In this document: piece after piece, positions 49,425 through 64,000 of the stretch | How positions within the stretch are numbered: the first letter of the stretch is position 1 | Layout: each line of letters opens with the position of its first letter | From: Nitrosomonas sp. | GTDB lineage: Bacteria > Pseudomonadota > Gammaproteobacteria > Burkholderiales > Nitrosomonadaceae | DNA: 64,000 nt | Assembly (NCBI GenBank): GCA_021604405.1 | Contig: BQJA01000004.1 | Span: forward strand, 19,096-83,095 | Reading direction: 5' to 3' | Notes under the pieces: generated by a model | The model's database searches: none | The model's input: only the letters and a program-made list of their open reading frames with translations | Told to the model about the DNA's origin: nothing | Made by a program: the position numbers and the translations under genes

Positions 49425-51119
49425 GTGAATAGACGGGATGTAATAAAAGCTGGTGCAGTGGCGGTTGCTTCAACACCGGCGGTTTTTGGGGGTGCTGCGC
49501 AGGCGCAGCTTTGCCGTCCGGAAGGGGACAGGAGTCCGTTGACTGAGCCGGACAGTCCGCAGGTTTCGTCGTATACTGAGCCGCTTTATTTCCCGCCGGC
49601 AATGGTCGAGGTCAATCCGGCCTCGCTGAATCCACCACCCGATCCAAATCGCCATCAGCGCTACAATGAATTTTTACCTGCCAAGTTTTATGTTCAGCAC
49701 CTGACTGAAGGATTCTGGAATTACCATAAGGAATTATCTGCGCTGAATTCAGATGGCGGCTCACTCGCGTGGATGTTTAATGGTGCGACACCGGGTGAAA
49801 CCATGGTGGCGCGTTATGGTGAGCCCGTTTTTGTGCGTCGATATAATGACCTGCCTGACCTGGAAAACGCCCGTATGCCGTTTGGTTATCCGGCCAGTTC
49901 CATCCACTTGCATAATGCGCATACGGCGTCTGAGAGTGATGGTTTTCCGATGGATTTTACGGTTCCAGGAGAATTCTGGGATCATCACTATGCCATGTAT
50001 CCGGCGCGTAACAATCCCAACGAAGCCTTGGCCAGTCTCTGGTATCACGATCATATGATCGATTTTACCGCGACCAATGTGTATGCCGGTCTCTCGGCAA
50101 TGGCCATTTTCTATGATGATATCGATAGCGGTGATGAGAATGATTCTAATCCAGATGCATTACGCCTGCCCGGCAACCTGCAATTTGGTGGAGACAACCA
50201 GGGTAATCCGAATGGCTATGACATATCATTGATTCTGCACGACGTGCGTTTCACGCAGGACGGTCATCCAGCCTATAACGTATTCGATACCGACGGACAT
50301 CTGGGTGATTTGATTACGGTAAACCGTAAAGTAAAACCCTTCATGAATGTGGAGCCGCGCAAATACCGTTTCCGTATTTATGATGGCGGGCCATCAAGAT
50401 TGTATGAACTGGAGCTCAGTGACCGCAGCAGCATGACTTGTATTTCCAATGATGGCAATTTACTGGAACATCCGGTTGACGTGACGAGTATTGTTCTTGG
50501 GCCGGCCAATCGCTTTGACATTATTATTGACTTTTCACGCTATTCATCCGGCGATCATGTTGATCTGGAGAATGTGATGGAGCAGATCAATGGACAAGGT
50601 CCAACCGGCCGCCGCTTGCCGCCGGATCAGCATATGGAGGTTTTGCGTTTCAATATTGTCGACCTCAAAGGGCCGGATAACAGTCGGGTGCCTTCTTTCT
50701 TGCGCGCATTACCAGAGATTAATCTGGATGAGGTGGTGGCGCATCGTGAATGGGTATTTGACCATGATATGGGTTTATGGACAGTGAATGGTGATTTTAT
50801 GGATCCGACCGTTGTTTCGGCGGCGCCTAAACAGGGTACGGCTGAAATATGGACATTCAGGAATGCAGGAAGCTCTTGGGCACATCCGGTGCATGTGCAT
50901 TTTGAAGAGTTTCAGGTGCTGGAATGGAATGGCAAGCCGCCGACGGGTATTTTGAAATCCCGCAAAGATACGGCAGTACTTGGTCCCAACGATACCGTCA
51001 AAGTATTTTATCGTTTCGATGATTTCAAAGGCAGTTATGTGATTCATTGTCATAACAATGTGCATGAAGATAACGCCATGATGCTGCGCTGGGATGTTGT
51101 TGCGGCGGATGACCAATAG
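49425..51119 (+). CDS. Tat-exported multicopper oxidase, CotA/bilirubin-oxidase-like
   Basis: MNRRDVIKAGAVAVA Tat-like signal; copper motifs SIHLHNAH, LWYHDHMIDFTATNVYAGL, HPVHVHFEEF, HCHNNVHEDNAMM. Confidence 0.93.
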   Translation: MNRRDVIKAGAVAVASTPAVFGGAAQAQLCRPEGDRSPLTEPDSPQVSSYTEPLYFPPAMVEVNPASLNPPPDPNRHQRYNEFLPAKFYVQHLTEGFWNYHKELSALNSDGGSLAWMFNGATPGETMVARYGEPVFVRRYNDLPDLENARMPFGYPASSIHLHNAHTASESDGFPMDFTVPGEFWDHHYAMYPARNNPNEALASLWYHDHMIDFTATNVYAGLSAMAIFYDDIDSGDENDSNPDALRLPGNLQFGGDNQGNPNGYDISLILHDVRFTQDGHPAYNVFDTDGHLGDLITVNRKVKPFMNVEPRKYRFRIYDGGPSRLYELELSDRSSMTCISNDGNLLEHPVDVTSIVLGPANRFDIIIDFSRYSSGDHVDLENVMEQINGQGPTGRRLPPDQHMEVLRFNIVDLKGPDNSRVPSFLRALPEINLDEVVAHREWVFDHDMGLWTVNGDFMDPTVVSAAPKQGTAEIWTFRNAGSSWAHPVHVHFEEFQVLEWNGKPPTGILKSRKDTAVLGPNDTVKVFYRFDDFKGSYVIHCHNNVHEDNAMMLRWDVVAADDQ

Positions 51120-51188
51120 GCGAAGCAGTATAAGCCAGAATTTTACAGTAATGGACGGATGCGAAATTTATTTTAGGAGTAAACAAAC

Positions 51189-51812
51189 ATGAAAAACCGT
51201 AGAGCATTTCTCACGACTGCTGTTGGTGCATCAGTTGCTGTTACAGCAGTAGCGGCGCCGAAAGTTACAGAGCAGACGCCGGCGCTGATGACCTGTTCAC
51301 CTGCATCGGGCGGTAAAAATGCCAAACTTTTTCCACATGTCATTGTGCAAGACCAGCATAAACGTAAGGCCTGGTTTTATGAGGAACTGATCAAGGACAA
51401 GCTGGTATTGGTTAACTTCACCTCATCCAGAGGTGAGAATTATTACCCGATTATCGAGAACATGGTCAAGGTGCAGGAAATGTTGCAAGACCGTCTTGGT
51501 AAAGATGTTTTTATGTACACTATCACCACCGATCCTTATCGTGACAATCCTGACACACTGAAGGCGCTGGCTGATAAATATGATGCCAAATGGCAGTTCC
51601 TGAGCGGCGCACCTGAAGATATCAAACATATATTGGCATCATTTAATGCGCGCGGAAATCTTCACGCATTATCCTGGGTTGGCAATGAAAAGCTGGGCCG
51701 CTGGCTCAATAAGCCAAGCCGGTTGCATCCTCTTTACATTGCCGAATCAGTCGCACGTTTGAGCACGGGCAAACATTACAAACCCTATCTGGTGAGAATG
51801 CGCAGTGCCTGA
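51189..51812 (+). CDS. SCO1/SenC-like thioredoxin-fold protein lacking the CxxxC motif, Tat-like signal
   Basis: MKNRRAFLTTAVGASVAV; LVLVNFTSSRGENYYPIIENMVKVQEMLQDRLGKDVFMYTITTDPYRDNPDTLKALADKYDAKWQFLSG follows the SCO layout. Confidence 0.78.
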   Translation: MKNRRAFLTTAVGASVAVTAVAAPKVTEQTPALMTCSPASGGKNAKLFPHVIVQDQHKRKAWFYEELIKDKLVLVNFTSSRGENYYPIIENMVKVQEMLQDRLGKDVFMYTITTDPYRDNPDTLKALADKYDAKWQFLSGAPEDIKHILASFNARGNLHALSWVGNEKLGRWLNKPSRLHPLYIAESVARLSTGKHYKPYLVRMRSA

Positions 51813-51907
51813 TAAGCAGAACAAAGGTAAATTTACTTACAGTACAGGTTGATTGCTGTAAGACGCGCCAGTTATTTTTGATCGGTAAAGAATAAAGGTG
51901 AAATCAA

Positions 51908-54001
51908 ATGAACGTTTACGTGATTAACAAATTGGGCGTATTTACGCTGTTATACGGCCTTTTGCTGGGGAGCATGAGTTTGTCAGCTGTTGCGCAGCGC
52001 ACTGATTCTGCTGGTCCTGCTGGCGTGGGGGATTGTGCGCTAGCAGAAGATCCGATGACCGGGATGACGGGATGGATGGGCCATCCATGCACGCAGCCAC
52101 GTCCGGGAGCGTCGACGCAAACCAGTCCTGAGCCAGGCTTGACGCAGGTCGTGACGCCGGAAGGATTTTTCCCGCCGGTAGACCCGTTTGCCAATCCACC
52201 CGGGAGCAATTTCTTGTTGAATGTAGATTCGAATCTGTATGACTTTAATGGTGATGAAATGCCGAATACGCTGCCATCGACCCCGACGAATCCCTACAAT
52301 TTGCATGATGGTCCGGTTTTGACAAAAAGCATAGATCCGACAAGCCCGGAAGATGACTTAAATGACATTATCAGTAAGTTAGAGGCCGTGGTTAGCGGCC
52401 GGGAATACAGGAAGCATCCTAAGAAGAAATACAAAAGGAAACATCATCATGCGCATGATGATGAGTATGAGGATTGGCACGCGCATGAGGATAAGCATCA
52501 TGGACATGACGAAGCAGAATTTAGTCATGCTGATATAAACATGGCGCTTGCGATCCTTGAGGGCGATAAGGTTAATGACAGGGCGTATAGTGGTTTTCCG
52601 ATGCTTCACTATAACGGTCCCAACAAGGTCAAAAAAGTTGTGCCGATTTGTCATGACCCAGATGGTAATATTCTGCAAGAATGCGGTCCCAATGATACGG
52701 TTGTGGGTGGTAACGTTGATGTCAACATGATTTATTTTAATCAGCATATTAAGAGCGATACGGCTTTTGTTGATCCCAGTGCGGTGCAGGAAGTACCCTG
52801 GACAGTCACCTATCGCATTAATATTTTAAATCGCGGCCTGGAAGACTTTTCGCCGATGGCCATGAATTTTGATCGTGTCGGATCAGATCGCGGTCCGTTT
52901 CACGCATCCATGGACCAAAGCTACTTTCCAATGTTAGCGGAAGGAACGCAATATACGATTAAGATAAAACAAAATAAGGGCAAGTACTTCAATCTGGTTT
53001 ATACCTGGGGCTGGCGTATTCACCCACCACGTGTACAGGTGATGGAAAATGCATTGAAAACAGCGGGCCCAGATGGCGATACATTGCCAGAATGGGAGAA
53101 GAAAGCTTTCTGTGAAGGCGGCAAGACAGACCCTGATTGTGATCCAGTCAACAATGACGACGACCGGCTCTATGCAATTTCCCAAATTGGCGATTTATCG
53201 CCGGCCAAGAGAATGTGGAATACATTCCGTGCGATGCAAGATGGCAGTATTGATAATGAACAGGCAGCCACTGATTTGAGAGCGGCGTTCCTGGACTGGG
53301 TGGATCGCACCAAGTTGCCTTCAGGCATTGAGGCTGATCCGGATTCTACGATTACCCTGCTGTATGTAAATAATACCATTTATGGCAGTCGACAAGGTTT
53401 GCAAGGGGCGGGTAGTGAGTTGGGCCCTGCAAGTTATAAAGGTATCCTGAATGGTGGTGCGCCTGACTGGAATATTCGTCCCTATCATTACCGCGTGACG
53501 TTATTGAATGGGGATCATTTTCCGCATGGTTACATGAGTGTCGACTTTGGGGGTTCGCGTGGCTGGGAAAATCAGTTTCAGTTTACCGACCCAACGACTT
53601 TAATGGATCCGCAGGGACCGCATACTGGCACAACCGAAATTGAAGGACGGCAATTCTCTATTGAAGACGACATGATCGTATTGACTGGGGAAGATAATGT
53701 TTTTCCAATAAACCGGGGTGGTACTGAAGAGTTCTTCACAGCAGACCCCCGTAATCAGGAAGATCGTGATAATGGCCCGCCGCAATTAGGTTCAGGGTGC
53801 TTTTTTACCTTTGGTCGAAATCATGCCTGGCCGAATGCGGGCGGTCCGTGGGGCAGCATTGTTGTGATGCCGGTTCAAGCGGATGGTACGCCGACCAAAC
53901 ATGTGGTTGAGATAGAATTCAACTATGAGCCAAGCCGCCGGTTACGGATTTATCAGTTTGACCCGATGCATCATGATGTCGCAATTTATTCGTTGCACTG
54001 A
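51908..54001 (+). CDS. Large secreted His-rich protein of unknown function, 697 aa
   Basis: Signal peptide (..LLLGSMSLSAVAQ); His/Asp/Lys-rich segment KHPKKKYKRKHHHAHDDEYEDWHAHEDKHHGHDEAEFSHAD; no recognised domain; same strand as the MCO and SCO-like genes. Confidence 0.8.
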   Translation: MNVYVINKLGVFTLLYGLLLGSMSLSAVAQRTDSAGPAGVGDCALAEDPMTGMTGWMGHPCTQPRPGASTQTSPEPGLTQVVTPEGFFPPVDPFANPPGSNFLLNVDSNLYDFNGDEMPNTLPSTPTNPYNLHDGPVLTKSIDPTSPEDDLNDIISKLEAVVSGREYRKHPKKKYKRKHHHAHDDEYEDWHAHEDKHHGHDEAEFSHADINMALAILEGDKVNDRAYSGFPMLHYNGPNKVKKVVPICHDPDGNILQECGPNDTVVGGNVDVNMIYFNQHIKSDTAFVDPSAVQEVPWTVTYRINILNRGLEDFSPMAMNFDRVGSDRGPFHASMDQSYFPMLAEGTQYTIKIKQNKGKYFNLVYTWGWRIHPPRVQVMENALKTAGPDGDTLPEWEKKAFCEGGKTDPDCDPVNNDDDRLYAISQIGDLSPAKRMWNTFRAMQDGSIDNEQAATDLRAAFLDWVDRTKLPSGIEADPDSTITLLYVNNTIYGSRQGLQGAGSELGPASYKGILNGGAPDWNIRPYHYRVTLLNGDHFPHGYMSVDFGGSRGWENQFQFTDPTTLMDPQGPHTGTTEIEGRQFSIEDDMIVLTGEDNVFPINRGGTEEFFTADPRNQEDRDNGPPQLGSGCFFTFGRNHAWPNAGGPWGSIVVMPVQADGTPTKHVVEIEFNYEPSRRLRIYQFDPMHHDVAIYSLH

Positions 54002-54013
54002 ACAAATACATTT

Positions 54014-54044
54014 AGAACCCCCTTTTTTTGTAAAGGAAGGTTCT
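54014..54044. other. Imperfect hairpin agaacc...ggttct in the gap between two cluster genes
   Basis: agaacccccttttttt-gtaaaggaaggttct, 6-bp outer arms plus partial inner pairing (cttt/aaag). Confidence 0.35.
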
Positions 54045-54176
54045 GTATCAAATACTTACAGTAACAAAACATAAATGGGCCTCACGTTCAGTTTGCAAAC
54101 AAGCGGGTTTCTGATGATTTTTTTTGTTTCAAATTGTGTCATAACGAATAAATATTCATCTGCTGGAAAATCAATC

Positions 54177-55346
54177 ATGCGATACGTCTTTATAGTCATA
54201 CCGGCTGTTTTTTGTGGCTTTATTGCAGGGTGGTATTTATTTAGTGATGGCGCGCCGGCTGCCAGTCAGAATGCTGCCTTGGGTGATGTTGCAGATACTG
54301 TCGACGAAGGAGGTTATCCAACGGTAACGATTGCATCTTCGGTTTCACACAATTTAGGTATACGCCATGCCGCAGCAGAAAAAAGGGATTTGCACCGAAA
54401 TATCGAGACCATTGGAAAAATTACGCGGGTAGATCCAATGGCACGACGAACTGTCACACCGCCCATAGATGGCGCGCTCGCTTATATCGCTGATAAGCAT
54501 GATGGTGATTTTCTTGAACGCGGTGAATTGTTATTCACTGTCGTTTCGGATGAACTGTTTGATTTGCAGAAAGCGTATCAAAATGCTGTTTTATCCGGTG
54601 ATCCGTCAACTGCCGGCGGAATGATTCCGGATATGCGGCAAATGGGTTTATCGCCGGACCAGATTACTGCGTTACAAAACGGTGCGGTACCTGAGTTTCC
54701 AGTAGAAGTTTATGCCGCTGAAGACAGTTATATTTTTTCACGCCGAGGGTTTGTCGGAGAATCCGTCCATACCGGTTTTACAGTATTCAGTGTGGGTGGT
54801 CATTACAGTGTGATTGAGGTGACGGCTGAAGTTTTTGAACGCCAATGGTCATGGGTGGAAACCGGTCAAACCGCATCGATGACCGTGCGTGGTTTACCGG
54901 GCGCTGTTTTTGCAGGCACCGTTGCCCGTGTACAGCCTCCGGTGGGATTTACGACACGCTCACTTGAAGTCGTCCTGAAATTTAACACGGACGACCCCGG
55001 GCTTTCACAAAGCATGTTTGCCCATGTCAGTATTTCAGGCCGACCAAAGGAAAACGTGCTGGTCGTGCCATCTGGGGCAGTTATTCGTACTGGCAGTGAA
55101 CAACGCGTTGTTCGCAAGCATGACGATGGCAGTTACCAGCCCGTGGTCGTCGTCGCGGGAGAAGAATCAGGCGGCATGGTTGAAATACAATCCGGCCTGC
55201 AAGCGCATGACACGGTCGTGACATCAGGCCAGTTCCTCATTGATTCCGAAAGTAATTTGTTGGCGGATTTCTCCCGTATGTCAACGAATGATGCCGCACA
55301 ATCAACGTCAATCGATCCCCCTCACCACCACCACCACCACCATTAA
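54177..55346 (+). CDS. Heavy-metal RND efflux periplasmic adaptor (CusB/CzcB-like) with natural C-terminal His7
   Basis: HRNIETIGKITRVDPMARRTVTPPIDGALAYIADKHDGDFLERGELLFTVVSDEL; RGFVGESVHTGFTVFSV; ends SIDPPHHHHHHH*. Start set at ATG 54177. Confidence 0.88.
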   Translation: MRYVFIVIPAVFCGFIAGWYLFSDGAPAASQNAALGDVADTVDEGGYPTVTIASSVSHNLGIRHAAAEKRDLHRNIETIGKITRVDPMARRTVTPPIDGALAYIADKHDGDFLERGELLFTVVSDELFDLQKAYQNAVLSGDPSTAGGMIPDMRQMGLSPDQITALQNGAVPEFPVEVYAAEDSYIFSRRGFVGESVHTGFTVFSVGGHYSVIEVTAEVFERQWSWVETGQTASMTVRGLPGAVFAGTVARVQPPVGFTTRSLEVVLKFNTDDPGLSQSMFAHVSISGRPKENVLVVPSGAVIRTGSEQRVVRKHDDGSYQPVVVVAGEESGGMVEIQSGLQAHDTVVTSGQFLIDSESNLLADFSRMSTNDAAQSTSIDPPHHHHHHH

Positions 55347-55401
55347 TAATCATAATGCCGCGAATTAATGACCCAACCATAAGCGGGTGGAAGACAGCGC
55401 A

Positions 55402-58400
55402 ATGATTGCAAGCCTGATCCGGTGGTCAATTGATAATCGGCTGTTGATAGTGTTAATAGCGGCGCTATTGGGTGTCTGGGGCATTTGGTCGGTTAAGACC
55501 ATGCCGGTTGATGCAATACCTGATCTCTCGGATGTACAGGTGATTATTAAAACCGGTTATCCGGGTCAATCCCCGCAGGTTGTCGAAGATCAAATCACTT
55601 ATCCCATTTCGACTGCCATGCTCGCCGTACCCGGCGCAGTGACCGTACGGGGATATTCCTATTATGGCGACTCATATGTTTACGTCATTTTCTCCGATAA
55701 TACGGATATTTATTGGGCGCGTTCGCGCGTACTGGAATACCTCAACCAGGTGAATGATCAATTGCCCGGCGGCGTCACACCAAAACTTGGCCCGGATGCA
55801 ACCGGAGTTGGCTGGGTGTATCAGTATGCCTTACTGGATCGCACGGGTCAGCATGATTTATCCGAGTTGCGCACCCTGCAAGACTGGTTTCTGAAATACG
55901 AATTACAAGCGCTGCCGGGTGTGTCTGAAGTGGCGACAATAGGCGGTATGATTAAGCAATATCAGGTTGTCATTGATCCCGATAAGTTGCGTGGTTATTA
56001 CCTGACATTGGGTAACGTCAAACAAGCCATTGAAGAATCCAACCGGGAAATCGGCGGATCAGTGCTTGAGCTCTCTGAAGCCGAGTATATGGTGCGTTTT
56101 AAAGGTTATTTGAATGGTGTGGAAGATATTGCCCAAACGCGCGTGCCGACGATTCAGCGTCGGCTTTCTATTTCCTCCGTATTGCTTGACGATGTGGTGC
56201 AAACAATTCAGCTGGGCCCGGCCATACGGCGGGGTGTCGCGGATTTGAACGGGGAAGGGGAAGTGGTGGGCGGCGTCGTCGTCATGCGCGCGGGCGAGAA
56301 TGCGTTGGCAACCATTGATGCGGTGAAACAAAAGCTGCAGGCATTACGTGCCAGTCTTCCTGCGGGGGTAGAACTGATAGAAACCTATGACCGTTCTACA
56401 CTCATTAGCAGCGCAGTGGATACACTGACCGACCGTTTACTGAAAGAATTTGTTGTTATTATTCTGGTTTGTGGGTTATTTCTACTGCATTTCCGTTCAT
56501 CGCTGGTTATTTTAATCAGTCTGCCAGTGGGTATATTGGTTGCCTTTATTATCATGCGTACGCAGGGAATCAATGCCAATATTATGTCGCTGGGCGGCGT
56601 GGCCATTGCGATCGGGGCGATGGTGGATGCCACCATTGTCATGATAGAGAATGTGCACAAGCATTTGCAGCGTGCAGAAATGAGTGAAAAGAATCGTATT
56701 CAGGCTATTCAGGACGCCACTGCAGAAGTGGGCGCGCCACTATTTTTTTCACTGATTATTATTACCCTGAGTTTCCTGCCGGTTTTTGCTTTAGCGGCAC
56801 AGGAGGCGCGTTTGTTTGCGCCGCTGGCCTATACCAAAACCTACGCCATGGCAGCCGCTGCAGGTCTATCCATTACCCTGGTTCCTGCCTTAATGGTTTA
56901 TCTCATACGTGGAAAAATTCGCCGTGAAGAAGATAATCCACTCAATCGGCAATTAATTGCGTTTTATTATCCGTTGGTCAGTAAAGCATTAAGCAAGCCA
57001 CTGATCATTATCATCATCGCGGGCCTGTTAATCGTTTCACTCGCTTGGCCTTTATCACAGCTTGGCAAGGAGTTTATGCCGGATATGAATGAAGGTGATC
57101 TGTTGTATATGCCCACAACCTTGCCCGGTATTTCTATCGGTAAAGCTCGCCAGCTCTTACAGCAGACCAACCGGTTAATCAAAACAGTACCTGAGGTTGA
57201 GCAGGTTTTCGGTAAAGTAGGGCGGGCTGAAACAGCAACTGACCCGGCGCCATTAACGATGATTGAGAGCGTCATAAAACTCAAACCCAGTGCACAGTGG
57301 CGAACGGGTATGACGATAGGAAAAATAACGCAGGAACTGGATCAGCGTGTACAGGTGCCAGGCCTGCGCAATTCGTGGTTGATGCCGATTCGTACGCGAA
57401 TTGATATGCAGGCAACCGGCATAAATACGCCGATTGGCTTGAAAATAGCCGGTCCTGATCTTGCAGGTATCGAGGCGTTGGGTGCACAGGTTGAGTCCAT
57501 ATTGCGGACGATACCGGCAACCAGCACAGTTTTGTCAGATCGCACTACCGGTGCACGATATATTGACGTTGATATTGACCGCCGCGCGGCGACCCATTTT
57601 GGCATCAGTATTGCCGAAATTGAAGAATCAGCAAATATTGCAATCGGTGGTCTGGATATTACGTATACCGTTGAAGACCGTGCGCGTTATCCAGTCAATT
57701 TACGTTATCCACAAGAATGGCGGGATTCACTTGCCAAACTCAAAGCGCTTCCGCTGGTAATTAATGAAGACGTGCAAGTGCAGCTGCAGGATTTGGCTGA
57801 GATTGCGGTTGTAGACGGCCCGCCGGTGATTAAAAGTGAAAATGCGCGCATGAATGGCTGGGTGTATGTCACCATTATGAATCAGGATATCAGTGCCTAT
57901 GTGGCGCATGCCAGGCAGGTATTACAGGAACAACTGCAATTACCGGCAGGCTATACCGTTGATTGGACAGGGCAATACCAGTTTCTTGAGCGTGCGGCGG
58001 AACGGTTGAGCCTCATTGTGCCTGTTACGCTGTTGATAATATTTATCCTGCTGTATTTTGCCTTTCAGAGTATGGTGGAAACTTTGCTTGTGCTGCTTAC
58101 CTTACCATTTGCATTAGCCGGCAGTTTCTGGTTGTTATGGCTACTGGATTATCAGCTTTCCGTCGCTGTTGCTGTCGGCCTTATTGCTTTGGCCGGTGTA
58201 GCGGCTGAGTTTGGCGTGGTGATGATTGTCTATCTGCGTGAGGCGGTTATGCGCCGTAGGCCAAAGACACATACGGCACTTATCGCAGCAGTCGTGGAAG
58301 GGGCTGCGTTAAGAGTACGTCCTAAAGCCATGACCGTTGCCGTTATTGTTGTGGGTTTGCTACCAATCATGATTGGCGGCGGCAGTGGTTCAGAAATCAT

Positions 58401-58527
58401 GCAACGCATTGCGGCACCAATTATTGGCGGCATGATTACCGCACCCATGATATCCATGTTTTTAATCCCGGTTTTATATTACTTATGGCAAAGAAGAAAA
58501 CTTACACAACAGGAGGGCACATATTGA
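55402..58527 (+). CDS. CusA/CzcA-family heavy-metal efflux RND transporter
   Basis: MASLIRWSIDNR-type N-terminus, VDAIPDLSDVQVIIKTGYPGQSPQVVEDQITYPI, GVGWVYQYAL, GAMVDATIVMIENVHK, MPIRTRIDMQATGINTPIGLKIAG, LRVRPKAMTVAV. Confidence 0.95.
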   Translation: MIASLIRWSIDNRLLIVLIAALLGVWGIWSVKTMPVDAIPDLSDVQVIIKTGYPGQSPQVVEDQITYPISTAMLAVPGAVTVRGYSYYGDSYVYVIFSDNTDIYWARSRVLEYLNQVNDQLPGGVTPKLGPDATGVGWVYQYALLDRTGQHDLSELRTLQDWFLKYELQALPGVSEVATIGGMIKQYQVVIDPDKLRGYYLTLGNVKQAIEESNREIGGSVLELSEAEYMVRFKGYLNGVEDIAQTRVPTIQRRLSISSVLLDDVVQTIQLGPAIRRGVADLNGEGEVVGGVVVMRAGENALATIDAVKQKLQALRASLPAGVELIETYDRSTLISSAVDTLTDRLLKEFVVIILVCGLFLLHFRSSLVILISLPVGILVAFIIMRTQGINANIMSLGGVAIAIGAMVDATIVMIENVHKHLQRAEMSEKNRIQAIQDATAEVGAPLFFSLIIITLSFLPVFALAAQEARLFAPLAYTKTYAMAAAAGLSITLVPALMVYLIRGKIRREEDNPLNRQLIAFYYPLVSKALSKPLIIIIIAGLLIVSLAWPLSQLGKEFMPDMNEGDLLYMPTTLPGISIGKARQLLQQTNRLIKTVPEVEQVFGKVGRAETATDPAPLTMIESVIKLKPSAQWRTGMTIGKITQELDQRVQVPGLRNSWLMPIRTRIDMQATGINTPIGLKIAGPDLAGIEALGAQVESILRTIPATSTVLSDRTTGARYIDVDIDRRAATHFGISIAEIEESANIAIGGLDITYTVEDRARYPVNLRYPQEWRDSLAKLKALPLVINEDVQVQLQDLAEIAVVDGPPVIKSENARMNGWVYVTIMNQDISAYVAHARQVLQEQLQLPAGYTVDWTGQYQFLERAAERLSLIVPVTLLIIFILLYFAFQSMVETLLVLLTLPFALAGSFWLLWLLDYQLSVAVAVGLIALAGVAAEFGVVMIVYLREAVMRRRPKTHTALIAAVVEGAALRVRPKAMTVAVIVVGLLPIMIGGGSGSEIMQRIAAPIIGGMITAPMISMFLIPVLYYLWQRRKLTQQEGTY

Positions 58528-59198
58528 TGCATAAAAATTTTTCGACGATTTGCCTGGTGGCGCTGCTGAGTTGGAGTACCTTTTTGCTGGCTGAATCCGA
58601 TGCAGAGCAATCCGAAAATGCCTTTGCTGAGGGACTGGAGTACCAATTGATTAATCCGCCGGTTCCTACGCAAAACGATGATGGGCGCATCGAGGTTGTT
58701 GAGTTATTTTTATATGCCTGTCCGCATTGCAATGTGTTGGCGCCTAATTTAAAGGCGTGGGCAGAAGACAAGTCGGAATATGTACTGTTGAGGCGCGTAC
58801 CGGCCATCGTCGGCGCGCCCTGGGCGGATCAGGCAAGAGTATTTTATACCGCCGAGAAACTGGGTATTCTGGAAAAGTCTCACGCGGCATTATTCAAATC
58901 TATCCATGAAGAGGGCGATCAGTATGCGGATGACCGTTCGATTATGGAATTTTTTGTCAAACAGGGTGTCAAAGAGGAAGATTTTTTCTGGGCATTTCGT
59001 TCGCCTGATGTGGATGAAAAAGTGAGCCAGGCACGAATTTTGACTGTCAAATATGGCATACGAGGTGTTCCTGCGCTCATTATCAACGGAAAATATCGAA
59101 CGGCACAATACTTTACGGGAACGCAAGAAAGATTGTTGAAAGTATTGGATATGCTGGTTGAAAAAGAACGCGATGCACGCGATGCAGACATAAATTAA
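58527..59198 (+). CDS. DsbA-family thiol:disulfide interchange protein
   Basis: LFLYACPHCNVLAP (CPHC), YGIRGVPALIINGKYRT (cis-Pro loop); start ATG overlaps the RND stop (tgatg). Confidence 0.9.
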   Translation: MHKNFSTICLVALLSWSTFLLAESDAEQSENAFAEGLEYQLINPPVPTQNDDGRIEVVELFLYACPHCNVLAPNLKAWAEDKSEYVLLRRVPAIVGAPWADQARVFYTAEKLGILEKSHAALFKSIHEEGDQYADDRSIMEFFVKQGVKEEDFFWAFRSPDVDEKVSQARILTVKYGIRGVPALIINGKYRTAQYFTGTQERLLKVLDMLVEKERDARDADIN

Positions 59199-59209
59199 AC
59201 AACAGAATC

Positions 59210-59671
59210 ATGGATATGATTAGTCATTTCGACGTCAAGCACGTAAGACGCATTGCAATATTGGCCACCGTCATGTGTGCGGCGCCCTCAATGGCTGCAA
59301 CACCGTTTCCCGGAAAACTGCCTGCGACGATTGTCCATATTGAAGCCGCCAATGTTATTTACGTCAATATTGAAACATGGCCCGGATTCCGGCGTGATTT
59401 TCGCGTAACCCTGCCGAATCTTGTGGTGCCGGGGCAAGGTGAGGATGTCATGGCGTGTGAATTGGCGTTGGCACAACAGGCCTATGACTTTACGGTTAAT
59501 TTTCTCAGTGACGTGACGACGGTTCATGTTAAAGATATGCGGATGGAAAGCAGTTCAAGCGAAGACGCGGTTTCATCAATTTATACCGATCACGGGACAT
59601 TGGATAATGCGTTAAGACGTGAGCGTCTGGCCCGGCCAGCCGATATCGCTGCCGGTGAGCCGTGGTGCTGA
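59210..59671 (+). CDS. Secreted SNase (thermonuclease)-fold-like protein, probably non-catalytic
   Basis: LPATIVHIEAANVIYVNIETWPGFRRDFRVTLPNLVVPGQ...MACELALAQQAYDFTVNFL...VTTVHVKDM...LARPADIAAGEPWC follows SNase layout without the usual DGDT / DTPE motifs. Confidence 0.6.
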   Translation: MDMISHFDVKHVRRIAILATVMCAAPSMAATPFPGKLPATIVHIEAANVIYVNIETWPGFRRDFRVTLPNLVVPGQGEDVMACELALAQQAYDFTVNFLSDVTTVHVKDMRMESSSSEDAVSSIYTDHGTLDNALRRERLARPADIAAGEPWC

Positions 59672-59685
59672 GGGGTGCTTGCGAA

Positions 59686-60090
59686 ATGAAAAGGAGCGGG
59701 CGCGTTATTTCAGACTGTCTGATTGTGGGTGGCTGGTTGATGATTGCATCGGGCAGTCATGCTGCAGATTCAGAAGGGACCATTGGTTACGCGCAGGAAC
59801 GTTACCGACCAGCGCCCGTTTATAACGGGCCGGTACGGACAGGCAAACAAGTTTATGACTATGCATGTAAGACCTGCCATGACCGGACGACCCAGGGCGC
59901 GCCATTACCGGACGATGATATCGAATGGGGGTTGCGTGCCGGCAAAGGCATGGAAGTGCTCATGCAGCATGTCAAGGAAGGGTATAAAGGCCTGATGCCT
60001 GAAAAAGGAGGCTGCCGGAATTGCAGCGACGAAGAGTTACGCGCAGGGATTATGTATCTGTTGGAGTCCAGCGGCGTAGCGTTTAAATAG
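59686..60090 (+). CDS. Cytochrome c5-type class I c-type cytochrome
   Basis: YDYACKTCHDRTTQGAP (CxxCH), GLMPEKGGCRNCSDEELRAGIMYLLESS (Met ligand plus c5-type CxxC); start set at ATG 59686. Confidence 0.9.
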   Translation: MKRSGRVISDCLIVGGWLMIASGSHAADSEGTIGYAQERYRPAPVYNGPVRTGKQVYDYACKTCHDRTTQGAPLPDDDIEWGLRAGKGMEVLMQHVKEGYKGLMPEKGGCRNCSDEELRAGIMYLLESSGVAFK

Positions 60091-60541: not shown

Positions 60542-61357
60542 ATGAATATAGTTAGAATATTACTTTTGGATGATGACGACAGCAATGTAAATTCAATAAC
60601 TAAATATTTTCAGCCGCTGGGTGCTGAAGTGGTTTTTACATCGAGTATTGATGAAGCCATTGTTCATTTAAAAAATACCCAACCCAGTCTTTTTTTAGTT
60701 TCTCTCAGCCTGGCGCATAACAATAATTGGTTTTTTCTCGATAAAGCAAAAAAAAGCCTGGCGCCAATTATTGGTTTGGTTGAGAAAAATCAATCTTCCT
60801 GGATGATGCAAGGGTGGACTCATGGCATCAATGCCTATTTGGTAAAGCCGTTGGATTACATGCACTTGAAAACATACCTGCCTTCAGCGCTCGCCCAGGT
60901 ATGGGCGATTAAAAAAAGGGTGAATACAACGGATGAACGGCGGTGTCTCGTCGACAGAAGAATCGTCGGGATGGGTCGACGGTGGTATGACCGTTTGAAT
61001 CAGATTAATAATGCAGAAAGTGACGAAAAAGGACCGACAAATTTCGGTCCTTTTACAATCTGCAGCGATAAGAAACTTGTTACCCGGAATGGGGAGGTTG
61101 TTAAGCTGACGCCAACGGAGTTCAAATTGTTGATGTTGTTGTTTCGAAACAGGGATCAGGTAGTTTCGATGGAAACGATTATTTCGCATATCTGGAATTC
61201 AAGCAACCGCGCCTCGGAAGAAGACGTGAAACAGTATATTTATATGCTCAGAAAAAAAATTGAAAAAACGCCTTCGAAGCCGTCTCTAATTCTTAATCAT
61301 AAAGGATTTGGTTATATGTTCTCCAGTGCGGTAATGGATTCAAGTGCTGCATCTTGA
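60542..61357 (+). CDS. OmpR/PhoB-type response regulator with atypical receiver domain
   Basis: VRILLLDDDDSNVNS; VKPLDYMHL; winged helix LTPTEFKLLMLLFRNRDQVVSMETIISHIW..EEDVKQYIYMLRKKIE..KGFGYMF; phosphoacceptor position reads VSLSL. Confidence 0.9.
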   Translation: MNIVRILLLDDDDSNVNSITKYFQPLGAEVVFTSSIDEAIVHLKNTQPSLFLVSLSLAHNNNWFFLDKAKKSLAPIIGLVEKNQSSWMMQGWTHGINAYLVKPLDYMHLKTYLPSALAQVWAIKKRVNTTDERRCLVDRRIVGMGRRWYDRLNQINNAESDEKGPTNFGPFTICSDKKLVTRNGEVVKLTPTEFKLLMLLFRNRDQVVSMETIISHIWNSSNRASEEDVKQYIYMLRKKIEKTPSKPSLILNHKGFGYMFSSAVMDSSAAS

Positions 61358-61468: not shown

Positions 61469-62011
61469 TTAAGGGGATGGAATTAGATCTAATAAATGGA
61501 ACGCGTCTATCGTCGCAGAACCGATTCTTCCATTTGCTGTAAAATCACCTATCTCGCTTTCACCGGTCTCTGCTGTCTGGCTGCTTGTGCTTGACAGCGG
61601 ATCTGAAAGCACCCAATGATTTATTTCCACAAAACCACCCCCATTTAATAAAATTATCAGTGGATTAAGCGATAGCAATATTAGTTCGTCTACACTTCCG
61701 TCCGGTTGCATTATGTTGGCTGATCGATTGTTTTCACCAACAGATATGATTTGTGATGATATATCACCAGAAGAATTACAAGTCGGGGGATTGGTGTCAT
61801 TGGTACAGATAGTAACATTTTGCATTATGGTGGCGCCATCAACAGTCATCGTTCCCTGTACAGTGATATCTCCTCGAAGACTATCAATGGAAGGTTCACC
61901 ATTAGCAAAAATAACAATACTTCTTTGAAAAGTGTATGTTTCTGACCAGGCGATATTCTGAAAGCAAAGTATCAGCAGCATTACAACAAAAGTATATATA
62001 GCGCTTCTCAT
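61469..62011 (-). CDS. Secreted protein of unknown function, 180 aa
   Basis: N-terminal signal peptide (LLILCFQNIAWS); no recognised domain; co-directional with the OM and C39 genes. Confidence 0.6.
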   Translation of the reverse strand: MRSAIYTFVVMLLILCFQNIAWSETYTFQRSIVIFANGEPSIDSLRGDITVQGTMTVDGATIMQNVTICTNDTNPPTCNSSGDISSQIISVGENNRSANIMQPDGSVDELILLSLNPLIILLNGGGFVEINHWVLSDPLSSTSSQTAETGESEIGDFTANGRIGSATIDAFHLLDLIPSP

Positions 62012-62093
62012 TTCACATCATCTCCTATGTAATGAAAGTGGTTGGAATAATATTTCGTTTATAATCCAAATCAATAAAATATCTGATACAAGA

Positions 62094-63341
62094 TTAGCGG
62101 GCGAACCGGTAAGGAAGCGCTACACTAATAACATAATCTGGTGAAGAATCCGTTAAACCAATCCCGCCATTGATGATAAAGAAAAGTTGTCGAGAAACTC
62201 TCGTCGCGAGTCCAAAATTCATAATGCTCTGAGGATCGCCTGACCCTGGTACATTAAAATTGGCTATTTGCGTCTTTTGCCGCCAGATTTGTTGCAAATT
62301 CAACGATAAGGAAGTGTAAGGGCTAGCCGCTAATGATGCGCCCAGTGAAAAAGAATACTGATCTCCCCGTTCGGTGTCGTTTTTTTTCAGTGTTGTTTGG
62401 TAATCAAATTGACTGGTAAAAGCTAACGGGTCTTGACGCTTAAGGGCTGTCATCGAAACGCGAAAATCATTGAAACCAGTTCCCATCAAAACATTGTTAT
62501 CGGTAATTTTGCCGCTAGCTGAATCCCATGTAAAACGCCCAACCAAATCAGGGAGCCAACCATCTTCGTGGAGTAGCGTTTTGGCGATTCCGACGCTGAT
62601 GTCACCCAGCGCTGCGCCCGTGCGACTGGTGTCCATCACGTTTGTGGCTCCTTGTGGAATTATATTTGTTTGATTGACAATTCGAGTGGGCAAACGGAGT
62701 TCCAGTTGTGATTCAAAAGGCAGTCCTGCGCGAAAAAAAAGACCGGTGTCGAATTCATTACGCTGAACATTCGCCGTCCTGACCCCTATTAATTGACCGA
62801 GATCATTCGTGACGAGTGACGGAAAATCATTTTCGCGTCGACTATAGTTAAAAAAAGGTTGTAATTCCATCTGACGAAATGGCAATAACAAGGCCCCAGT
62901 TTGAACTAAGCTGCGATCCAAGGCGCGTTCAGCCGCCAGTTCATCGACGGCAAATTCGCCGGGCGATGATTTCTTTTCTGCCTGATCCTGGGATTTATCA
63001 TTAGCTTGCGCTTGTTGCACGGTACCGGCCGCGGCACTGGGCTGGCCGGGAGATTGCGTATTATTTGGCGTTGCTGCATTTGCTGATGGCGCCTGTTGTT
63101 GGGATTTTTGTGTTTCCTGTCGGCCTTCCAGTAACTTTACCCGTCGATTCAGGTCGTCAATCACTGCATCCCGCTCCTCAAGCTTTTGCAGTAATAATTG
63201 TATATCTTGTTCCGGCATGGGCAAATTCTGCGCAAAGCTGGTTGAATGGAAGAAAAGCGCCATATAGATTAAGCTTGCGGCGCATATGCAGCCTGTTGCT
63301 GTCACTTTGGTTTTACTGAGGTGAAAAGTTACGTTTGACAA
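62094..63341 (-). CDS. Outer-membrane channel/'transporter'-like beta-barrel with N-terminal coiled coil
   Basis: Signal peptide, coiled coil QDIQLLLQKLEERDAVIDDLNRRVKLLEGRQ, Pro/Gln/Ala linker, barrel-like C-terminus ending ISVALPYRFAR; probable TTG start preceded by aaaggggga. Confidence 0.7.
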   Translation of the reverse strand: MSNVTFHLSKTKVTATGCICAASLIYMALFFHSTSFAQNLPMPEQDIQLLLQKLEERDAVIDDLNRRVKLLEGRQETQKSQQQAPSANAATPNNTQSPGQPSAAAGTVQQAQANDKSQDQAEKKSSPGEFAVDELAAERALDRSLVQTGALLLPFRQMELQPFFNYSRRENDFPSLVTNDLGQLIGVRTANVQRNEFDTGLFFRAGLPFESQLELRLPTRIVNQTNIIPQGATNVMDTSRTGAALGDISVGIAKTLLHEDGWLPDLVGRFTWDSASGKITDNNVLMGTGFNDFRVSMTALKRQDPLAFTSQFDYQTTLKKNDTERGDQYSFSLGASLAASPYTSLSLNLQQIWRQKTQIANFNVPGSGDPQSIMNFGLATRVSRQLFFIINGGIGLTDSSPDYVISVALPYRFAR

Positions 63342-63477
63342 TTATTCCCCCTTTATTAGTAACTTATGATAGTGAATAATGCAGTGTAACCTTGCTTTGA
63401 CAGCGTCAAAATGTTGTTTTTGACAATTATTCCCCCCTTTATTAGCAACTTATGACAATGAATGATCTACTGTAACA
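63323..63477. repeat. Imperfect tandem duplication, offset about 85 bp, spanning the gene-start region
   Basis: gtttgacaattattccccctttattagtaacttatgatagtgaat (copy 1) versus tttttgacaattattccccccttta​ttagcaacttatgacaatgaat (copy 2). Confidence 0.8.
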
Positions 63478-64000
63478 TGACAAATTCATCCAAATTAGGT
63501 GCTAATCGGTTTTGCGGAAAAGTTCCGTCATTTCGGGCGACAACAAAGCCAACTTTGCCTACTTCTGGAAACTCAATCCAGCTGTTCTGGAATGTTTTCA
63601 CGAGCATGGTACGGTTTCCCCAGGCGGGATCAGCCAGTAATACGCGGTTGCCATGCATCCCCCGGAAGATCACAAAATGGTTATAACCTTTGGTATCAAT
63701 GGGTACCACGATGGGCGCTTTTTCTAACAGCTGTTCAAATGAAAGTTTGCCATAACCAATGCCTCGGTAACCTCTACCGTCTACAAAGCGTTTAAGGTCC
63801 AATAAAGAAAATCCTTCCCGCATTCTGACTATGTGTGGATTTTTGATGTATTCAGCCCGGTTCATCAAGCCGATCGCGACTTCCCTTTCAGTGATCGGGT
63901 CATCATACTGATAGTTCAATAGTGTGGTTAAAGCAGCAGCGCCACAGCTTAAATCCCATTGCTGTACGACAACATTCGTATGGCGCATCTCCAATAAGGA
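63467..64000 (-). CDS. C39-family cysteine peptidase, 5' end probably beyond window
   Basis: VVVQQWDLSCGAAALTTLLNYQY (catalytic Cys), YNHFVIFRGMHGNRVLLADPAWGN (His/Asp); frame open to the window edge. Confidence 0.88.
   Translation of the reverse strand, partial: SLLEMRHTNVVVQQWDLSCGAAALTTLLNYQYDDPITEREVAIGLMNRAEYIKNPHIVRMREGFSLLDLKRFVDGRGYRGIGYGKLSFEQLLEKAPIVVPIDTKGYNHFVIFRGMHGNRVLLADPAWGNRTMLVKTFQNSWIEFPEVGKVGFVVARNDGTFPQNRLAPNLDEFVMLQ

Follow-up and report, generated by a model that had tools for sequence, protein, structure and literature searches.

In a 64,000-nucleotide stretch of a 3.74-Mb draft genome of Nitrosomonas sp. (contig BQJA01000004.1, positions 19,096 to 83,095; hereafter the window), we identified a cluster of eight genes that, with a probability of about 0.5, encodes a secreted two-subunit multicopper oxidase (MCO) of the iodide oxidase (IOX) kind together with a copper module of its own. 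The substrate of this enzyme is inferred, and iodide, at slightly less than even odds, is proposed as the main one. The core of the cluster most likely belongs to a known kind, and the new part is its downstream half, a variant that bears a copper pump. An original prediction for this DNA had described eight consecutive same-strand genes with tight junctions (tgatg at 58527; 11 bp at 59198-59210), and all of these were present. The open reading frames (ORFs), tightly packed on the + strand at 49425-60090, fall into the families first described, as judged from the ORF list and from Pfam and NCBIfam profiles:

49425..51119, + strand: IoxA-like MCO of 564 amino acids (aa), with Pfam Cu-oxidase, Cu-oxidase_2 and Cu-oxidase_3 and the twin-arginine translocation (Tat) signal NRRDVIK
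51189..51812, + strand: IoxB-like SCO1/SenC protein of 207 aa with a Tat-like leader (Pfam SCO1-SenC, E 2.3e-10)
51908..54001, + strand: IoxC-like partner of 697 aa, predicted to be secreted, recognised by family alignment and without a Pfam family
54177..55346 (ORF opens at 54075), + strand: CusB/HlyD-type periplasmic adaptor with a C-terminal His tail (Pfam HlyD_D23, E 5e-29; alignment)
55387..58527, + strand: CusA-type RND pump of the Cu(I)/Ag(I) class (TIGR00914, 1184 bits against a cut-off of 701)
58527..59198, + strand: DsbA-like periplasmic thiol oxidase with a CPHC motif (Pfam DSBA, E 1e-14; orthologues at the same place)
59210..59671, + strand: small secreted protein with a suspected SNase-like OB fold and two invariant Cys (alignment; weak PDB thermonuclease match)
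59662..60090, + strand: cytochrome c5-like protein (class I cytochrome c) with CKTCH and a conserved GGCxNC (Pfam Cytochrome_CBB3, E 6e-11; alignment)

Counted from the ORF starts, the successive intergenic spacings are 69, 95, 73, 40, -1 (the tgatg junction), 11 and -10 bp. The adaptor gene probably starts at 54177, where its homologues begin, and with that start the gap before it is 175 bp. The start of the DsbA gene was corrected to 58527, at the tgatg junction, from a longer ORF start at 58485. On either side of the run lie about 440 bp without long + strand ORFs.

We compared the cluster with the published iox genes. The IOX of Iodidimonas sp. Q-1 and Roseovarius sp. A-2 is an extracellular enzyme composed of IoxA, a 62-kDa MCO that stands phylogenetically apart from CueO, CotA, CopA and CumA, and IoxC, a 71-kDa protein of unclear function, and the purified enzyme contains copper and zinc (PMC9415286). 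The genes ioxA-F lie in one orientation, with IoxB, IoxD and IoxF being SCO proteins and the role of IoxE being unclear (PMC9415286). Like ioxABC, the window cluster opens with an MCO, an SCO protein and a large partner without a known domain, on the same strand and in the same order. The window MCO and partner are close in size to 62 and 71 kDa, and the MCO falls outside CueO and CopA and carries four copper motifs. The window core is thus very probably homologous to ioxABC, and the system, which the original prediction had called possibly undescribed, is probably of a known kind in the order and gene types of its core. Unlike the iox genes of Iodidimonas, the window cluster is not flanked by gsp genes.

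When one genome per species was scanned with the 697-aa protein, 24 loci were recovered. MCO and SCO homologues directly precede the partner, in the same order, in all 20 loci, on named contigs, that reach far enough upstream (Proteobacteria and Acidobacteriota), and every testable locus has a partner that can be likened to IoxC by its size and position. The co-occurrence of the cluster genes is far above chance. The original prediction had made co-occurrence across genomes its refutation test; the homologues do co-occur, and they form one conserved periplasmic or extracellular copper-redox unit, as it had proposed. Downstream of this core, two cluster types were distinguished. The efflux type, found in the window, in other Nitrosomonas and in many Gammaproteobacteria, continues with a CusBA-like Cu(I) pump, DsbA, the SNase-like protein and cytochrome c5. 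In all 14 efflux-type loci whose sequence extends far enough, the adaptor and pump come after the core; genes for DsbA, the SNase-like protein and the cytochrome then follow in most efflux-type loci and were not found in the Lysobacterales-type loci L032-L034. The iox type continues with a second SCO and then protein E, which has one CxxCH motif (L057:10933-12618, L062:12042-13787, L063:7697-9697) and whose C-terminal part matches Peripla_BP_6 in one member (E 8e-13). It is carried by Methylocystis (L057-L060, which include M. iwaonis, G1002, and Methylocystis sp. MJC1, G1072, the other two sharing the genus label g191), by two genomes of the window's genus (G002 at L062; G013 at L064, up to the contig end) and by G458 (L063), and further gammaproteobacterial, acidobacterial and bacteroidotal loci are of this type (L037, L039-L041).

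By gene type, the iox-type order MCO-SCO-C-SCO-E matches ioxABCDE, and no counterpart of F was found in these clusters. In the published IoxE, a cytochrome c is probably joined to a domain resembling a binding protein. The iox-type clusters (L062, L064, L057-L060) share with the window the core A-B-C, the Cys-less SCO and the invariant partner C terminus, whereas a downstream SCO and a cytochrome c/binding-protein-like fusion replace the pump module. Identity between the window and the iox-type clusters is about 48% for the MCO and about 39% for the partner. Both cluster types encode a cytochrome c, and electrons may pass to cytochrome c5, as had been suggested at the outset.

Phylogenetic trees were built for the MCOs (28 ingroup and 8 other MCOs) and for the partner (33 proteins). 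The cluster MCOs form a clade of their own apart from the other MCOs, and the window MCO groups with the short MCOs of iox-type clusters. Both trees divide by the downstream module, with support of 100/100 for the efflux clade in each and of 100/97 (MCO tree) and 100/100 (partner tree) for the iox group. The downstream module requires one change on the partner tree and follows the core phylogeny without exception. Together with the constant position of the adaptor and pump after the core, this makes it very unlikely that the pump/DsbA/cytochrome genes form a unit independent of the core and came to lie beside it by chance, an explanation with which the Lysobacterales loci that retain only adaptor and pump, the varying order of the SNase-like gene (L022, L030) and some intergenic gaps of 70-175 bp would agree.

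The two types also share a chromosomal site. In two Nitrosomonas genomes, an efflux-type cluster (G006, L061) and an iox-type cluster (G002, L062) have their flanking genes in common: five upstream, which are 58-87% identical, and one downstream, which is 75% identical. The presence of both types at one site argues for equivalent jobs, that is, for alternative versions of one function. The window cluster lies at another place, beside metXW; at the shared site, the window's genome keeps the four nearest upstream flanking genes and lacks the cluster.

The window MCO contains the copper-binding motifs HLHNAH, HDHM, HPVHVH and HCHNNVHEDNAMM, with Met as the axial ligand. The four motifs, the axial Met and the twin-arginine leader are kept in 28 of 28 MCOs (the window and 27 relatives). 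Against curated models, it scored 146.9 bits for CueO (cut-off 525) and 30.3 bits for CopA (cut-off 479) and likewise missed the PhsA cut-off; its Met content is 2.8%, with no Met-rich segment. The window pump aligned with E. coli CusA (3t51/3k07) at 1284 bits over its length, with Met573/623/672 opposite Met, and is, by sequence, a CusA/CzcA heavy-metal RND protein of the Cu(I)/Ag(I) type. The adaptor and pump are thus related to CusB and CusA of E. coli CusCBA, with the metal-path Met kept, whereas the window cluster lacks CusC, CusF and CusRS and has its pump tied to an MCO complex; no ORF for a CusC outer-membrane channel or a CusF chaperone occurs between 49425 and 60090. Nitrosomonas relatives retain the adaptor's His tail, and in several Gammaproteobacteria the adaptor has a metal-binding segment of the form CPMH...CPICGM.

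The class of the pump with its three Met, the CPMH...CPICGM segment, and the His tails and His-rich loops would suit a copper detoxification island, in which a CueO-like cuprous oxidase, a CusBA-like pump, SCO and DsbA jointly counter Cu(I) in the periplasm. We consider such an island rather unlikely, because the MCO lies far under the CueO and CopA cut-offs without a Met-rich segment, is always accompanied by an IoxC-like partner, and belongs to a core that occurs pumpless in iox-type clusters, and because the cluster contains neither CusC nor CusF. Since the pump is absent from sister clusters with the same oxidase core, the better reading is that it supplies the oxidase with copper or keeps its copper in balance. 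The route first proposed for this cluster, from periplasmic metal oxidation through sequestration to export, is not the best supported.

The SCO protein encoded by the second gene lacks the copper-binding CxxxC motif in the window and in the listed relatives of both cluster types, so the missing motif is a family trait and not a peculiarity of the window. The downstream, second SCO of iox-type clusters mostly has CxxxC. Efflux-type clusters have no second SCO and have CusBA instead, so the pump may take over the copper role of the second SCO. Of the features named in the original prediction, the His tail of the adaptor is shared by Nitrosomonas relatives, the Cys-less SCO is typical of its family, and the His-rich stretch of the 697-aa protein proved, in the family alignment, to be a variable loop that is missing or different in relatives. 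The SNase-like label stands as a weak relation: the best PDB profile match of that protein (thermonucleases) has an E value of 0.003, and Pfam SNase was detected in 3 of 11 family members, all at E 0.015 or worse. In gammaproteobacterial efflux-type clusters, a glutaminyl cyclotransferase (PF05096) gene often lies between the IoxC-like and pump genes (L024:11891-12880, L022:11854-12699, others).

The 697-aa partner gave no match to Pfam, NCBIfam or PDB sequences. Its C terminus, HH followed by SxH at the very end, is invariant in 33 of 33 proteins and is a possible metal site, perhaps related to the copper and zinc in published IOX. AlphaFold models of the partner were of moderate confidence. 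A first model gave mostly cupredoxin-type Foldseek matches with low TM-scores; a second, better model had rusticyanin at the top and nothing significant, and a cupredoxin fold thus stays a guess. A distant relative of the partner, 735 aa long, was found in two genomes of the same genus (G014 and G004; hhalign 99.6%, E 2e-24), where it adjoins a 1565-aa MnxG-like giant oxidase (L065:1590-8559, - strand; L066:3131-10109, + strand). The giant oxidase scored 368 bits to 9bxa, and the MnxG model NF041487 gave 192.6 bits in the L065 protein, below its cut-off of 3100. These results suggest that IoxC belongs to a larger family of MCO partners in which the C-terminal His is invariant. This family may serve several inorganic oxidases, including iodide- and manganese-type ones, and for that reason iodide is only the leading substrate.

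This neighbourhood would also suit a metal oxidase, in which the MCO and its partner oxidise Mn(II) (or Fe(II)) extracellularly, with the partner as a general subunit of metal-oxidising MCOs. The small MCO CotA is able to oxidise Mn(II) (PMC3618234), and a secreted MCO with a partner is common to the window and the MnxG Mn(II) oxidase. However, the window MCO is short, gives no match to NF041487 and groups with the short iox-type MCOs, and MnxE/F-like genes were not recognised; we regard a metal oxidase as unlikely.

For an enzyme of the IOX kind, the following course can be proposed. The IoxA-like MCO would be exported by Tat and the IoxC-like partner by Sec, as their signals indicate, and the Cys-less IoxB-like SCO would help in assembly. 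The MCO and the partner would together form the enzyme, as has been shown for IoxA and IoxC in Iodidimonas and Roseovarius. Electrons would enter at the type 1 copper, iodide being the most likely small reductant to donate them, with O2 reduced to water and I2 or HOI formed. CusBA, DsbA, the SNase-like protein and cytochrome c5 would stand where the iox type has its second SCO and its cytochrome/binding-protein fusion, and this replacement module probably supplies or clears copper, sets disulphides and handles electrons.

Several points weigh against an enzyme of the IOX kind. The window has no ioxD, ioxE or ioxF and carries the CusBA-like pump, DsbA, the SNase-like protein and cytochrome c5 in their stead. 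These three iox genes are not known to be required for activity. The equation with iox is based on gene order, gene type, size and two papers. The fold of the partner is not tied to iodide, given the MnxG-like neighbour of its distant relative, and carriers of the cluster are not restricted to iodide-rich water. Most Nitrosomonas relatives lack the cluster, so neither iodide oxidation nor iodate formation by all ammonia oxidisers is explained by it: among 101 genomes of the window's genus and its relatives, 7 gave any match and 5 were true carriers. It is possible, if doubtful, that the efflux-type clade is functionally distinct. Its IOX-related oxidase, coupled to a dedicated Cu(I) pump, a DsbA and a cytochrome c5, would then act on Cu(I), Mn(II) or some further small reductant in place of iodide. 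O2 might in that case not be the sole electron acceptor, the cytochrome being another, and the IoxC-like proteins would represent a novel type of MCO partner subunit on which MnxG-like oxidases also draw.

Iodide oxidation has been reported in ammonia oxidisers. Nitrosomonas sp. Nm51, which is reported to make iodate, and Nitrosococcus oceani oxidise iodide by an unknown mechanism, and homologues of ioxA and ioxC occur in some Nitrosomonas, with operon presence and function unknown (PMC12335899, 2025). Operon structures for Nitrosomonas are now available in two versions, with one chromosomal site shared in two genomes. Which enzymes convert iodide to iodine or iodate in water is an open question, and the clusters make it directly testable. 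They also connect enzymes resembling iodide oxidase with copper handling in bacteria that oxidise ammonia, methane and sulphur. In a search of the carriers, amoA was found in the genus members G006 and G013 and in the methanotrophs, and was not found in the window draft genome or in the sulphur oxidisers; its absence from the window draft may reflect loss of a multi-copy operon in assembly. Two carriers (L025, L032) are HGW genomes, a naming used for Horonobe groundwater (PMC5520028), and Horonobe is a site studied for its iodine (title cited in PMC11231164); this link is only suggestive. The locus L032:2547-11872, from one HGW gammaproteobacterium, contains two tandem MCO-SCO-partner sets.

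Outside these genomes, the partner was not found on plasmids (tblastn), in a class-wide alphaproteobacterial sample or in one further family. A Skermanella plasmid MCO-SCO pair followed by a 618-aa protein was considered as an iox-like set and rejected, the 618-aa protein being unrelated to the partner. Plasmid loci in which an MCO lies close to an SCO without an IoxC-like gene (L044, L045, L069, L070, L071) occur in Skermanella, Limimaricola, Comamonadaceae and Fuscovulum (Paraburkholderia neighbours are unannotated), and the Fuscovulum pair adjoins the type II secretion genes gspD/gspE, an arrangement also known for iox in Iodidimonas.

Within the window locus, promoter and terminator scans gave no excess over shuffles, Rfam gave no match, and the repeat search revealed none that were notable. 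An OmpR-type response regulator gene lies at 60542-61357, between the cluster and putative fap genes. Just downstream, 61469-63994 on the - strand encodes a FapF-like amyloid transporter, whose score against NF058560 (49.8 bits) is under the cut-off, together with a secreted protein of 180 aa and a peptidase-like protein; these genes are possibly the end of a functional amyloid (fap) operon.

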